A stretch of DNA of 5,925 nt from Candidatus Aminicenantota bacterium. GTDB lineage: Bacteria > Acidobacteriota > Aminicenantia > UBA2199. A program made the position numbers and the translations under genes. The DNA lies in the NCBI GenBank assembly GCA_020355945.1, contig CP070627.1, positions 1,952,302-1,958,226 of the forward strand, in the 5' to 3' direction. Every line of letters starts with the position of its first letter. The stretch's first letter is position 1. The notes beneath the pieces are model-generated. The model was not told where the DNA came from, ran no database searches, and was given only the letters and a program-made list of their open reading frames with translations. Below, one piece after another: positions 535-5,925 of this stretch.

Positions 535-2145
535 ATGAGACGTTCAATTTTAATATTGATATTCACAGCCCTGGTGTTCTCTCCCTGTCTCTTTGCCAAA
601 ATACAGGTGGGAGAAAAAGTCAAGCAAACGTTCGAGACTTCGCATCCCTATCCGGGTGAAAAAGGTGTGGTCTGGCAAAAGGAGTTCCATCATCCCGATG
701 CCGGGTTTATCGCCATTCACTTTTCAAAATTCGATCTGGCCAAAGGTGACTACCTGGAAATTTCCAGCCCTGACAAAAGATTCAAATACACCTACAAAGA
801 AAAAGGGAAAAAGGTCAAGCGATTTAATAATCAAAAGAAACTTGTAGAGAAGGAGATCAGTGTATTCTGGGCCACCCACATTCCCGGGGACCGGGCCATT
901 GTCAAACTGGTGAGCCAAAACAAACAGAATGCCTTTGGTTTTGTCATTGATGAGTGGGTACGCGGTTATGAGCCAGGACATGTAGAGGCGTTATTAGCAG
1001 AGGATTCAACGGCTCGAATTCAAGCTATCTGCGGCAGTGATGACAGCGAATGGGCCAAATGCTACGACGGCACCGCTATGTATGACAAATCCAAAGCGGT
1101 CTGCCGGCTGCTGATTAATGGAAACATCGCCTGCACCGGTTGGTTAATGGGCAGCGAAGGCCATGTGATGACCAATGAGCATTGTATTGAGAACCAGACC
1201 AGCGCAGACAATACAGACTTTGAATTCATGGCCGAAGGTTCCACCTGTACTACGGATTGTTCCAGTTGGTTCGCCTGCCCCGGTACTGTAGAGGCCAGTT
1301 CAGGCACACTGGTTAAAGTCGATTACGACCTGGACTATTCATTGTTATTGCTTCCCACCAATGTGAGCGGTACTTACGGGTATTTACAGCTCAGGGACAC
1401 CCTGCCAACAGTGGGGGAACGGATTTACATCTCCCATCATCCCAGCGGATGGGGTAAGCAATTGACGGTGAACAGTGATACTGACGGACCTTATGCTAAA
1501 ATCTACAGCACAACTCAGCCCCCCTGCCATGGTGGTCCTGGCGATATCGGTTATTATGCCGACACAGCCGGCGGCAGCTCCGGTGCACCGGTGCTGGGTT
1601 ACACAGATAACCTGGTGGTAGCCCTGCATCACTGCGGAACCTGCCCCAACCGAGGAGTCCCGGTTACTGCCATTATTACGGATTTAGGCCCTGACCTGCC
1701 TGATGATGCGGTTGCCGGTGGTGCACCACAATACTGCACCACCTATAGTAAAAACCAAAATTACGAATGGATTGCACAGGTTCAAATCAGTGATTTAAAT
1801 CACAGCACCGCTGCCTCTGCTTATTCGGATTACACCAACAAAACAGCCAATGTAACCGCAGGAGCCAATGCCAGTGTAACCTTAACTCCCGGGTATGCCG
1901 GTGGTTCCTATTCCCAATACTGGAAGATATGGATTGATTATAATAATGATGGTGATTTTACTGATGCGGGTGAAGAGGTGTTCAGTAGTTCGGGAGCTTC
2001 GGCCGTGTCCGGTAATTTCACTGTCTCTTCGGGTGCCAGTGGTGAAAAGCGGATGAGGGTATCTATGCGTTATGAGGGTTCACCGGATTCATGCGGCGCT
2101 TTTATCTATGGAGAAGTTGAAGATTATACGATCAATATCCAGTAG
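535..2145 (+). CDS. Secreted trypsin-fold (S1-like) serine protease with C-terminal GEVED domain
   Basis: The 536-residue product starts with a clear Sec signal peptide (MRR, hydrophobic core to about residue 20, probable cleavage after Leu-Phe-Ala21). Residues 22 to about 160 form a Lys-rich, beta-strand-like region that could be a propeptide or sandwich domain. The protease domain runs from about Cys166 to 395. The catalytic triad is visible as His216 (TNEHC, the TAAHC position), Asp267 (DYSLL, the DIALL position) and Ser349 (GGSSGAP, the GDSGGP position). Many Cys in this part suggest disulfides. The general pattern recalls lysyl endopeptidase-type bacterial S1 proteases, but no obvious S1-pocket Asp is seen near NRGVPVTAI, so specificity is open. 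A GEVED domain fills 400-536: YC at 400-401, IDYNNDGDF at 467-475, Cys520 (probable partner of Cys401) and GEVEDY at 526-531. The protein should act outside the cytoplasm. It sits between a GEVED protein and a modified-peptide precursor on the same strand. Confidence 0.9.
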   Translation: MRRSILILIFTALVFSPCLFAKIQVGEKVKQTFETSHPYPGEKGVVWQKEFHHPDAGFIAIHFSKFDLAKGDYLEISSPDKRFKYTYKEKGKKVKRFNNQKKLVEKEISVFWATHIPGDRAIVKLVSQNKQNAFGFVIDEWVRGYEPGHVEALLAEDSTARIQAICGSDDSEWAKCYDGTAMYDKSKAVCRLLINGNIACTGWLMGSEGHVMTNEHCIENQTSADNTDFEFMAEGSTCTTDCSSWFACPGTVEASSGTLVKVDYDLDYSLLLLPTNVSGTYGYLQLRDTLPTVGERIYISHHPSGWGKQLTVNSDTDGPYAKIYSTTQPPCHGGPGDIGYYADTAGGSSGAPVLGYTDNLVVALHHCGTCPNRGVPVTAIITDLGPDLPDDAVAGGAPQYCTTYSKNQNYEWIAQVQISDLNHSTAASAYSDYTNKTANVTAGANASVTLTPGYAGGSYSQYWKIWIDYNNDGDFTDAGEEVFSSSGASAVSGNFTVSSGASGEKRMRVSMRYEGSPDSCGAFIYGEVEDYTINIQ

Positions 2146-2198
2146 GCAGTAGAAAAAAATGTTAAGAAGACAGTTTAGCCAGGAACAAACCCAAAAAG

Positions 2199-2207
2199 AG
2201 GAGGTGA
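2199..2207 (+). promoter_or_regulatory. Extended Shine-Dalgarno site for the peptide precursor gene
   Basis: AGGAGGTGA matches nine consecutive bases of the common 16S 3' end complement, and the GGAGG core stands 6 bp before the ATG at 2211. It decides the start of this small gene and predicts strong translation, which is typical for precursor peptides made in excess over their modifying enzymes. Confidence 0.85.
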
Positions 2208-2210
2208 AAT

Positions 2211-2441
2211 ATGAAGACCAAAAAAATCCACAGGAAACTGGTCTTAAACAAAATCACCATTGCCAACCTGGTTGGCAATGACATGAGGCGTATCTACGGC
2301 GGTGCGCCAAAAGTAACTCATAAGTGTGTAGAGACGGATACCTGTGAGACAATTGCCTGTGAAACAATGGATCCGGAATTGTGCCCGATCCCCAGCACCG
2401 GCAGTATTGAGTTTTCTTGCGATACTGCCTGTAATTGCTGA
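2211..2441 (+). CDS. Probable RiPP precursor peptide, class I lanthipeptide / GG-leader type
   Basis: The 76-residue product divides into two parts. Residues 1-31 are basic and end in Ile-Tyr-Gly30-Gly31. They carry the pattern K-L-x-L-N-K-x-T-I-A-N-L followed by M-x-x-I-x-GG, which is known from class I lanthipeptide leaders and the related GG-type natural-product precursors of Bacteroidota and similar phyla. Residues 32-76 form an acidic core with seven Cys (39, 45, 50, 58, 70, 74, 76) and ten Ser/Thr. The only Lys residues in the core are 34 and 38, before the first Cys, and the gene ends in ACNC. Dehydration of Ser/Thr and thioether closure by Cys is the likely modification; radical SAM (sactipeptide-like) or simple disulfide formation are alternatives. 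The double Gly suggests cleavage by a C39 peptidase-transporter. No modifying enzyme or transporter lies in the window. The gene follows the serine protease by 65 bp, has an excellent ribosome binding site and is followed by a strong terminator. Confidence 0.8.
   Translation: MKTKKIHRKLVLNKITIANLVGNDMRRIYGGAPKVTHKCVETDTCETIACETMDPELCPIPSTGSIEFSCDTACNC
2258..2280 (+). repeat. Perfect 10-bp inverted repeat inside the precursor leader coding sequence
   Basis: CATTGCCAAC and GTTGGCAATG are exact reverse complements separated by the three bases CTG. The stem-loop covers the codons for the conserved leader residues Ile17 to Asn23. It may form in the mRNA about 47 bases after the start codon. It could affect translation or RNA stability, or it may be chance codon use; no T-tract follows, so it is not a terminator. 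Confidence 0.6.
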
Positions 2442-2562: not shown

Positions 2563-2603
2563 GGGGGAAGGCTTCGGCCTTCCCCCACTTTTTTAATTTT
2601 TTT
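2563..2603 (+). terminator. Strong rho-independent terminator ending the precursor transcript
   Basis: GGGGGAAGGC (2563-2572) pairs perfectly with GCCTTCCCCC (2577-2586) around a TTCG tetraloop closed by C-G, an exceptionally stable loop. Six T follow at 2589-2594 and seven more at 2597-2603. It closes the unit holding the GEVED protein, protease and peptide genes and insulates the next gene, which has its own promoter. Confidence 0.93.
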
Positions 2604-2736: not shown

Positions 2737-4146
2737 ATGAAAGCTCTAATTCATAGAGACCGGGAAAAAATTGCCGGGACTGTCAGGCCAGTATTTGCAT
2801 TTATAATTTTTATGATTGGGCTGGTGGGAATCTCCTGCAGCCCTTTTATCAGTTCCACACAAGACCAGCAAAATGAAAAAAATGTCCTAGAAATCGGAGA
2901 TTGGTTGAGGCAAAAGGTTGTTTCTTTCTCAACCTGCGAACCAGGGACAGATTACCTGGACTTGATGCCCCTTAAAGAGATGATAGGCAATGCGTCTATT
3001 GTGGCATTGGGAGAGGCTACACATGGTACCAGTGAATTTTTCAAAATGAAGCACCGCATCCTGGAATTCCTGGTTAAGGAGATGGGATTTAATACATTTG
3101 CTATGGAGGCAGGCTTCGCCGAATCCCTACGAGTCAACCGCTATATCCAGGGCGGCCAGGGGGACCCGGCTGTGGTGCTGAAGGGTTTGGGTTACTGGAC
3201 CTGGAAGACCCAGGAGGTACTGGATATGATCATATGGATGCAAAATCATAACCAAAATCCCAATGGTTATCCTACCGTTAGCTTTTGGGGTTTTGACATG
3301 CAATATTTTGCTCTAGCCATGGATGAGGTGATCAATTACTTAAACGAAGTGGATGTACCCGCGGCTGAACTGGTTGAGTCTTTGTACTCTCCTTTGAGAA
3401 AATATGAAACGGATATGATGGCTTATAAATTTGCCTACCATGAACACGAGAAATGCCGGGAGGATGTGGAAAAAGTATACCAATTGCTACAAGAGAATCA
3501 AGATCTTTATGAAAACATAACCGGTAAAAAAAAGTTTGATTTAGCACTGCAAAATTCCCGGATCGTGATACAGTGGGAAGATGATTTTTCTGATAGGCAC
3601 TTTCCTTCCCTCAGTATACGTGATGCTTATATGGCTGAAAATGCTTCATGGATAAAGCAGTATGCAGGACCCGGGGCGAAAGTCGTACTGTGGTCCCATA
3701 ATGGACATTTGGGTGATGGATTTTCCCCTAACATTAGAAAAACAATGGGCACAAACTTGAGGGAAAAATATAATAGAAGTGAAATGGTTATTATTGCTTT
3801 TAATTTTTACCGGGGATGGTTTAATGCCTACGCCCTTCAAGAGGGCGGGATGAAGTTAAGGGCCATATATACACCATATCCTAAAGAAGAGAGTTATTCA
3901 ACCTATTTTGTACATGCGGGGATACCCGCTTTCTTCCTGGATTTGCGGGATTTATTGGCAGGCGACTTGAATCCCGCTGCCAGTGACTGGATCCAGGGGC
4001 CCCGTCCTTTTCGGACTGTCGGTTCCACATACGATATAGAAAAACCCGAAGATTATTATTCCACGATAAGATTGCCCAACGTATTTGATATCGTTATTTA
4101 TTTCCATGACACCTCTGCGTCTCAATTATTACTTCTTGATCCATAA
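2737..4146 (+). CDS. Erythromycin esterase family hydrolase, probable lipoprotein
   Basis: The 469-residue product begins with a basic stretch and a hydrophobic segment (about 18-33) that ends in Gly-Ile-Ser-Cys34, a slightly atypical lipobox, so it is probably exported and lipid-anchored. The rest matches the erythromycin esterase family (PF05139 type): GEATHGTSEF places Glu93 and His96, AMEAGF places Glu124, and WSHNGH places His321 and His324. These correspond to the Glu/His residues known to matter in EreA/EreB. Further family signatures are the WTWKTQE and FWGFDMQ segments. The true resistance enzymes hydrolyse the macrolide lactone, but most family members have no known substrate and this one should not be called a resistance gene from sequence. 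The start is fixed by AAGAGGTGA ending 6 bp before the ATG. It has its own promoter behind a terminator, and the next gene is convergent, so it is probably a single-gene unit. Confidence 0.87.
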   Translation: MKALIHRDREKIAGTVRPVFAFIIFMIGLVGISCSPFISSTQDQQNEKNVLEIGDWLRQKVVSFSTCEPGTDYLDLMPLKEMIGNASIVALGEATHGTSEFFKMKHRILEFLVKEMGFNTFAMEAGFAESLRVNRYIQGGQGDPAVVLKGLGYWTWKTQEVLDMIIWMQNHNQNPNGYPTVSFWGFDMQYFALAMDEVINYLNEVDVPAAELVESLYSPLRKYETDMMAYKFAYHEHEKCREDVEKVYQLLQENQDLYENITGKKKFDLALQNSRIVIQWEDDFSDRHFPSLSIRDAYMAENASWIKQYAGPGAKVVLWSHNGHLGDGFSPNIRKTMGTNLREKYNRSEMVIIAFNFYRGWFNAYALQEGGMKLRAIYTPYPKEESYSTYFVHAGIPAFFLDLRDLLAGDLNPAASDWIQGPRPFRTVGSTYDIEKPEDYYSTIRLPNVFDIVIYFHDTSASQLLLLDP

Positions 4147-4236: not shown

Positions 4237-5925
4237 TTACCTGGCACCATTCTCCTTCCACCAATTTCCCTTCTCCCTATTTTGTTTTTGTCTGTATTGT
4301 ACTGTTGTGGAGCAACCTTCACCATAAACGTTGTAAGCGCATACTTTATAAAAATAAACGGTTTTAGGCGTCAGGTCCGAATCCTGGTAGTAAGTTGTAT
4401 TGGGTTGGACAGAGGTAATCGGGATAAGGGTTAAAGGGGTATCACCCCTATAAATTCTAAATCCCTCTTCATTGTCGGAATTATCTGTCCAGGCCAGGTT
4501 GATTCGATTGGAGATCGCTTTGGCTGTTAAGTTGGTTGGACCTGCCGGGAGGTTACCAACGCTGTTATTAATATAGAGGAAAACCGCGCTAAAGGCACCC
4601 CAGTTGCCATCTGTGTCCTGCCCCCTGACAAAGATAATATGCCGACCTTCTTTCCAGCCAGTGGTATTGATGGTGGCTTCAGCAGCTTCTACCCCACTGT
4701 TGAAATTTCCATCCACCGGCCACATGTCATATGCAACGGGTCCTTGAGCGGAAACCCACGGCGGTACATCAACGTAATACTGGGCCGCGGCTATATTTTG
4801 CCATGGTTCGCTGCCAGTGTTGTTATTACAGCGGGTGTCATCGACAGAAGCGGTTAAGGTGACACTTGTGCCGGCGGAAATGCCCGGGGATGTCGAGCCA
4901 GCGCTGAGACCCGGGTTAACAGCATCAGGCCCGGCTGATGTCATGTAAGGTGTCCTGGCAACTTTAAGGGCATAAAAAAGTGCAGGTATGTTATCCGCTA
5001 GCAGTGTATTTTCAAAATAGGAGCAGCTCTCAAAGAACGCTGTCCCCAATTCAACAGTATAAGCCGGTATGCCCATTTCACCGTAGCCGAACAATTTGGA
5101 TGTACCATCAGGAGTCGACCCATAGACACGGTAGCCATTAAAGTAAGCGATCTTACGTGCCAGTGTTATAAGTTCCGTCACATTGGGAACCGGTTCCTTC
5201 GATTCGTTTAACCACCTGGGCTGGTAAAGTATCTCTCGACCGTGACTGTGAATATCCAGGTAAATACCCGTGGTATCGAGCGGTGCGGGGTCGGAGTTAT
5301 TGGGCCCCCGCTGATCGGGAAATTGGGAGCGGATGTAATTTTGTATAGCCTGTGTCTCCGGCTCCGAAGCAGCATAGGGGCCGCGATAAACCAGGCTGCA
5401 GGGATCACCGCTGGAACCGCCGAAGCAATTCCATTTAAACTCGAAGTTCCGATTAAGGTCTGCGCCGCGGTAATTGCTGTTCGGGCCGCAGTAGTCCTGG
5501 TTGGTGTTTTTTCGCCATAACAGCCCGGTTTCTGCCTGCTTACGTCCGTCCGGGTTGGCGTGAAGCATCATATGGATTTCGTGATAGTCCAGCATCCAGG
5601 TGACATCAGGATCAGTGTTATAGTTATCCACCAGGTATTCGGCCAGGCGGGTCAGAAGTTCAGCAGTGGTGTATTCACGGGCATGGATGGCACCCGTTAA
5701 GAATAACTTAGGCTTGGGCCCGGGGACAGCAGAGTTGGTTAACTTTAACACGTACAAATCATAGCCGCCAGAGCCATTGGTCTTTTCCCATGAGTCACCC
5801 TGATCGGTCCAGGTGGCAAGCTCCGGGTAATTGGCAGCAATGGACGCGCCAGTGGTAAAAGTCTCTTCTACTGTTCGATAGCATGGATAGCCAGGTATCC
5901 CGGCAGTTTGCACCAGGGCCGCTTC
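4237..5925 (-). CDS. Secreted M14 zinc carboxypeptidase with Ig-like and fibronectin type III domains (5' end outside window)
   Basis: The frame is open to the window edge and residues EAAL precede the GTG at 5913, so the true start and signal peptide lie outside. Counting from that GTG, the catalytic domain shows all the key M14 residues: Zn ligands His77 and Glu80 (GAIHARE) and His222 (LDIHSH), substrate-binding Arg134 (WRKN) and Asn154-Arg155 (ADLNRNF), and catalytic Glu288 (YTVELG). Residues about 330-450 form an Ig-like beta region, and 456-540 form a fibronectin type III domain (PTNLTAKAISNRINLAW, then FRIYRG and VYFYKVCAYN). The protein ends with a short basic, polar tail (RQKQNREKGNWWKENGAR) rather than a recognised sorting domain. 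It should remove C-terminal residues from peptides outside the cell, probably for peptide nutrition. It converges on the erythromycin esterase family gene with a 90-bp gap that holds only a weak 5-bp stem and no clear terminator. Confidence 0.9.
   Translation of the reverse strand, partial: EAALVQTAGIPGYPCYRTVEETFTTGASIAANYPELATWTDQGDSWEKTNGSGGYDLYVLKLTNSAVPGPKPKLFLTGAIHAREYTTAELLTRLAEYLVDNYNTDPDVTWMLDYHEIHMMLHANPDGRKQAETGLLWRKNTNQDYCGPNSNYRGADLNRNFEFKWNCFGGSSGDPCSLVYRGPYAASEPETQAIQNYIRSQFPDQRGPNNSDPAPLDTTGIYLDIHSHGREILYQPRWLNESKEPVPNVTELITLARKIAYFNGYRVYGSTPDGTSKLFGYGEMGIPAYTVELGTAFFESCSYFENTLLADNIPALFYALKVARTPYMTSAGPDAVNPGLSAGSTSPGISAGTSVTLTASVDDTRCNNNTGSEPWQNIAAAQYYVDVPPWVSAQGPVAYDMWPVDGNFNSGVEAAEATINTTGWKEGRHIIFVRGQDTDGNWGAFSAVFLYINNSVGNLPAGPTNLTAKAISNRINLAWTDNSDNEEGFRIYRGDTPLTLIPITSVQPNTTYYQDSDLTPKTVYFYKVCAYNVYGEGCSTTVQYRQKQNREKGNWWKENGAR

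Follow-up and report, generated by a model that had tools for sequence, protein, structure and literature searches.

The 5,925 nt stretch of DNA analysed here, referred to as the window, holds a short open reading frame that is likely to encode a lanthipeptide precursor. The features of the window are given below with their basis.

1-522: GEVED-domain fragment (Pfam)
535..2145, + strand: predicted secreted trypsin-like protease with a GEVED domain (Pfam Trypsin_2 and GEVED)
2198..2205, + strand: Shine-Dalgarno-like GAGGAGGT, 5 nt 5′ of the ATG (sequence)
2211..2441, + strand: putative lanthipeptide precursor gene (LanA-like), 76 aa (ORF; NF038153 at 30.4 bits; 10 further homologues)
2211..2303, + strand: leader, residues 1-31, MKTKKIHRKLVLNKITIANLVGNDMRRIYGG, with a double-glycine end (the NF038153 match spans residues 1-31)
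2304..2438, + strand: core, residues 32-76, 45 aa (composition and alignment of 11 homologues)
2325..2369, + strand: C-(V)E-T repeat stretch CVETDTCETIACETM (unit counts and homologue alignment)
2563..2586, + strand: terminator-like hairpin followed by a T run, 121 nt past the precursor stop
2737-4146: erythromycin-esterase-family protein (PF05139, 254 bits)
4237-5925, - strand: M14 carboxypeptidase (Pfam)

The small ORF had been described earlier, in a sequence-only reading, as a precursor with a basic leader that carries a TIANL pattern and a Gly-Gly end, and this description proved to be correct. The peptide has 76 residues; its leader contains KITIANL and ends in IYGG. An SD-like motif is present before 100 of 105 precursors (the one in the window included) as compared with 130 of 2070 random sites, and none of 14 control genomes gave a match to the leader family NF038153. 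The NF038153 match, the ten relatives, the lack of matches in the controls and the excess of SD sites indicate that the ORF is more than a chance frame. Three terminator-like sites were found between 2000 and 2800, against a mean of 0.9 in shuffled sequences.

The protease gene at 535..2145 lies on the same strand as the precursor gene, 65 nt upstream; the two are possibly co-transcribed, and the protease is not claimed as a part of the system. Its family is very large (1103 matches among 7995 scored candidates), and a close homologue with 87% identity is labelled Candidatus Aminicenantes, which suggests a relative of that group as the source of the window. With the fragment at 1-522 it makes up two GEVED-domain proteins in succession. 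The 2737-4146 protein may carry a lipoprotein signal, as far as visual inspection shows; it scores far under the EreA, EreB and EreD cut-offs and hence no resistance is claimed. Neither tRNA genes nor Rfam families were found in the window. The earlier statement that the window has no LanB/LanC, radical SAM enzyme or C39 transporter agrees with the domain scans, in which none of these domains was detected among five window proteins.

The class I lanthipeptide-like character ascribed to the leader is backed by a family match. The leader matches NCBIfam NF038153 (lant_leader_L1a, 'class I lanthipeptide') over residues 1-31 with 30.4 bits and an E value of 3.3e-7, the curated cut-off being 22 bits. 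The match to TIGR04149, the leader family of rSAM-modified RiPPs, is weak (15.1 bits, E 0.015) and falls under the cut-off of 25 bits. A search of 5.8 billion proteins returned 11 proteins including the window peptide itself, and all 10 further relatives score over the NF038153 cut-off. Conservation of the Cys and the GG among homologues had been proposed as a test of the peptide. In the alignment the GG is invariant (11/11), conservation at each of C39, C50, C70 and C74 reaches 90% or more of the 11 proteins, and the Cys pattern is present in nine of the ten relatives, the sole exception being P0011 with a core of just 11 residues. The precomputed annotation of P0003, P0005 and P0008-P0011 is Pfam PF28317; the Pfam scan carried out here did not show this family in any of P0001-P0010. 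No confirmed relative was obtained when the precursor alignment was compared with the genome-contig and viral-contig collections, and a PDB search with the precursor gave a single match at E 2, which is not meaningful.

The core has the composition that was described for it, 45 residues with seven Cys and ten Ser/Thr and no Lys/Arg past residue 38 (the last being K38). It thus fits the class I precursor type, in which a Cys-bearing core should have no fewer Ser/Thr than Cys. The C-(V)E-T-x-x repeat occurs in 2 to 4 units among the 10 full-core homologues (the window peptide included), and a ladder of Thr-x-x-Cys rings is possible in CVETDTCETIAC of the window peptide. Across the repertoire described below, however, the spacing repeated in this family, with Thr three residues ahead of Cys, shows no enrichment (z -0.9).

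Sister genomes were reached via the protease neighbour. Four of them (G001-G004) were searched first, followed by 34 genomes of the order to which G001 belongs, taken here to be the Aminicenantales; matches to NF038153 were counted up to an E value of 0.01. The leader was found in seven of the 34 genomes, with 74, 50, 48, 32, 30, 22 and 10 matches. These seven are the genomes of 4.7 Mb or more, and no match was found in the other 27, which measure 1.8-3.4 Mb. Phylum-wide, 10 of 396 genomes match; the nine besides G001 have 1-3 matches each, and the count for G001 in that search is a lower bound since 19 of its 47 candidates were scored. In the class of Flavobacterium J27, presumably the Bacteroidia, 15 of 295 sampled genomes match (1, 3, 21, 1, 1, 2, 1, 7, 1, 2, 1, 1, 4, 1 and 5 matches), with leaders over the curated cut-off in 13 of the 15.

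The fetched loci gave 142 distinct precursors, from which 2 of Bacteroidia were dropped. The remaining 140, including that of the window, have 140 distinct cores, no two alike. The leader ends in GG in 125 of the 140 precursors from the sister genomes and the window. The cores contain 15.6% Cys and 14.3% Thr while the leaders are practically Cys-free; the medians per core are 5 Cys and 7 Ser/Thr, and a single core of the 140 is without Cys. Compared with 500 core shuffles, there is an excess of Ser/Thr at distances of 1, 5 and 6 residues on the N-terminal side of Cys (z 7.0, 10.1 and 7.6) and of 2 residues on its C-terminal side (z 7.3). Among 1500 random pairs of the first 99 precursors, the mean share of common residues was 48% in the leader, 33% in the core and 31% in shuffled cores. 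The Cys number is odd in 60 of the 99 cores of this first set. Three G002 cores carry GTVHGRTCD-type units (L208 4861-5097, L210 8681-8923 and L210 9342-9551), repeated in two of the three and unlike the other cores listed.

The modification and export genes were searched for in the same genomes. LanB (PF04738) occurs in seven of the 34 genomes of the order, and these are exactly the seven with L1a precursors. Where their records are named, the sister genomes are metagenome assemblies; most are fragmented, and the seven may be one clade; the coincidence of LanB and leader may then represent a single clade and not seven independent events. The canonical LanB of G001 is split into a 749-aa Lant_dehydr_N protein and a 331-aa Lant_dehydr_C protein, directly preceded by a 411-aa LanC (LANC_like). 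In G002 LanB is split likewise and the second protein, of 332 aa, is confirmed by Pfam; LanB likewise has an ORF of 305-323 aa next to it in G003, G007 and G008, as judged from ORF positions. LanC was found in all four of the seven genomes that were searched for it, in 3 to 7 match stretches each. The G001 LanC aligns with PDB 8byk (E 7.7e-18), and its Cys and Cys-His motifs, which we take to be the zinc ligands, are kept. Such a role agrees with a passage in PMC10352776.

A C39 peptidase is encoded in 17 of the 34 genomes, namely all seven with precursors (each at E 1.8e-34 or better) and 10 without. Its distance from LanB is about 2.5 kb in both G001 and G009. In G001, the one genome in which the ABC context was seen, it forms part of a PCAT1-like ABC transporter (E 1.2e-84). 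SPASM radical SAM domains are present in all 34 genomes; the seven with precursors have 7 to 24 matches apiece. Their presence does not track the precursors, as they also occur in the 27 genomes without precursors.

A second, divergent LanB system is present at G001:C53 (L195) 6625-12669, with a LanB-like protein of 998 aa, a Lant_dehydr_C protein of 353 aa and a LanC of 682 aa. G002:C495 and G003:C743 likewise hold LanB-like frames, about 1000 aa in length. The two divergent-LanB contigs that were fetched whole (L195, L199) hold no L1a precursor.

The positions of the precursors were then compared with those of the enzymes. One of the seven genomes has a precursor at 10 kb or less from the canonical LanB, a count that understates adjacency and cannot be fully judged for five of the seven, as their LanB contigs are merely 4.7-9.8 kb long. 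The one case is that of two precursors on G004 contig C636. No precursor was found on the short LanB contigs of the other five genomes. The LanB contig of G001 is 132 kb, and the nearest of the 30 precursors located in this genome (from 23 fetched stretches) is about 11.5 kb from LanB. In the Bacteroidia sample, LanB is present in 13 of the 15 genomes with L1a leaders, and all 13 have at least one leader match no further than about 5 kb from it; in two of them the leader matches are under the curated cut-off. Such proximity links the leader family to LanB. In the Aminicenantales the two still occur together but are mostly not clustered. No LanB was found in two of the Bacteroidia genomes, G089 with 21 L1a leaders and G092 with one. 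The 21 matches of G089 (2.6 Mb) are on contigs C72, C20, C8, C91 and C57, with 13 on one contig; either this genome is incomplete or a different modifying enzyme is used.

In the neighbourhood survey, 81 loci (80 fetched stretches and the window) were compared, of which 69 hold a precursor, 105 precursors in all. No gene family is a constant neighbour across the 69 loci. The largest BLAST-linked group of neighbours occurs at 18 loci and is apparently sensor/regulator-like, as judged by eye from one sequence; possibly it just reflects a large family. The group that includes the neighbours of the window is found at 7 of the 69 loci, and LanC is beside a precursor at 4 loci. Lone precursors adjoin LanC at G004:C391, G004:C170, G001:C160 and G003:C684, with no LanB found on the contig. 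A same-strand ORF ends less than 150 nt upstream of 18 of the 105 precursors.

The sequence-only reading had left two routes for the window peptide, modification in trans or a cluster that begins beyond the left edge of the window. Neither LanB nor LanC adjoins the majority of the precursors examined in the relatives, which favours modification in trans over a cluster on the left. The scattered precursors of the relatives suggest an explanation for the enzyme-less window locus, in which a few enzymes encoded elsewhere apparently serve them all.

Taken together, these results make it likely that the gene at 2211-2441 encodes a class I lanthipeptide precursor of the orphan type, whose modification would be the work of a split LanB and a LanC shared with other precursors and acting in trans, and whose export would use a C39 transporter. 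The L1a leader would be recognised in trans by the split LanB encoded elsewhere in the genome. Of its two proteins, the glutamylation protein of about 750 aa and the elimination protein of about 330 aa would together dehydrate Ser/Thr of the core. LanC would then add Cys thiols to form (methyl)lanthionine rings, and the C39-peptidase ABC transporter would cut after the GG and export the product. The window peptide would thus be one of a large scattered repertoire with one leader and hypervariable Cys/Thr-rich cores. The repertoire and enzymes of the window's own genome, their action on the window peptide, the order of the steps and the positions of the rings are what we infer here. The products are most likely secreted peptides acting between microbes, a role proposed with low confidence.

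A GG leader, a C39 peptidase in all seven genomes and many Cys are also what would be expected if the core formed disulfides without dehydration, as a GG-type microcin-like peptide exported by the C39 transporter alone. This is unlikely, as C39 is found also in 10 genomes without precursors whereas LanB occurs in exactly the seven with them; moreover, the cores are rich in Thr, the Ser/Thr-Cys spacing is non-random and the Cys number is often odd (60 of the 99 cores in the first set). Another possibility is sulfur-carbon crosslinks made by a radical SAM (SPASM) enzyme, as the family name of TIGR04149 implies; genes for such enzymes were among those that the sequence-only reading had proposed to look for. 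The weak match of the leader to that family (15.1 bits, E 0.015), the abundance of SPASM domains (7 to 24 in each of the seven genomes) and the two Bacteroidia genomes with L1a leaders in which no LanB was found are in line with such a route. The score is, however, under the cut-off of 25 bits, and the SPASM domains are present in 34/34 genomes including the 27 precursor-less ones; this chemistry is thus not supported and is highly unlikely.

Slightly less credible still is a two-gene unit in which the upstream trypsin-like GEVED protease would be the dedicated leader peptidase of the precursor. The common strand, the 65 nt gap with no promoter-like site found in it, the hairpin after the precursor and the looser BLAST-linked group at 7/69 loci would fit such a unit. 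A related near neighbour (two genes on either side, profile search) was, however, seen only at the window and at L173 among 105 precursors at 69 loci, the protease family is very large with its 1103 matches, and the GG end of the leader fits cleavage by C39. The least probable of all is a decayed, non-functional precursor left from a lost cluster. The scanned window proteins include no RiPP enzymes, as a remnant would predict, but the frame is open and preceded by an SD site, the leader is conserved in ten relatives and the Cys in nine, and in the sister genomes, too, precursors usually stand apart from clusters.

Class I lanthipeptides of Bacteroidota with L1a leaders share with the present group the NF038153 leader and LanB. 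They differ in the number and placement of precursors: 14 of the 15 Bacteroidia genomes have 1-7, and the 13 with both leader and LanB have one close to LanB, whereas the present group has 10-74 per genome, mostly not near it. Of 20 LanB matches in the Bacteroidia sample, 17 are in frames whose length (1006-1103 aa) would fit fused enzymes and three are in short frames (735-772 aa); split LanB is thus not unique to the present group. Pinensin biosynthesis also uses a split LanB. Pinensin comes from a conventional cluster; unlike in that cluster, the enzymes here would serve scattered genes. The precursors of rSAM-modified RiPPs (TIGR04149) are matched by the window leader in part only, at 15.1 bits against the cut-off of 25.

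No paper was found that pairs 'Aminicenantes' with 'lanthipeptide', and none of the titles and abstract openings among the literature matches listed, in which subscription papers are mostly not covered, points to a scattered class I repertoire. According to PMC7268733, the prochlorosin precursors were missed since its search was limited to a set distance from a LanC-domain gene. The orphan precursors described here would be overlooked likewise by cluster-based mining.

The closest parallel is with the prochlorosins and synechococsins of marine picocyanobacteria, class II lanthipeptides made by ProcM and SyncM, for which PMC10783134 gives up to 83 precursors per strain. According to the same paper, the precursor genes are single or in tandem and are served by a solitary promiscuous enzyme; a conserved GG leader, variable Cys cores and scattered genes are common to these peptides and the present group (PMC10783134). 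The prochlorosins, however, depend on class II LanM and Nif11-family leaders, while the present group has split class I LanB with LanC, L1a leaders and belongs to another phylum. As both the leader and the class of enzyme differ, the present arrangement falls outside the prochlorosin family and shares with it an analogous logic only. On balance, it is somewhat more likely than not that in the large-genome Aminicenantes relatives one main split LanB, helped by LanC and a C39 exporter, serves up to about 74 scattered precursors in trans, as a separately evolved class I counterpart of the prochlorosins. Natural lanthipeptide libraries in which one enzyme handles many substrates are known from class II enzymes. 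If the view is correct, a class I example, with its glutamyl-tRNA and separate cyclase, would mean that such libraries arose more than once, and that a very tolerant class I enzyme set exists in which the handling of unrelated cores by one dehydratase becomes testable.
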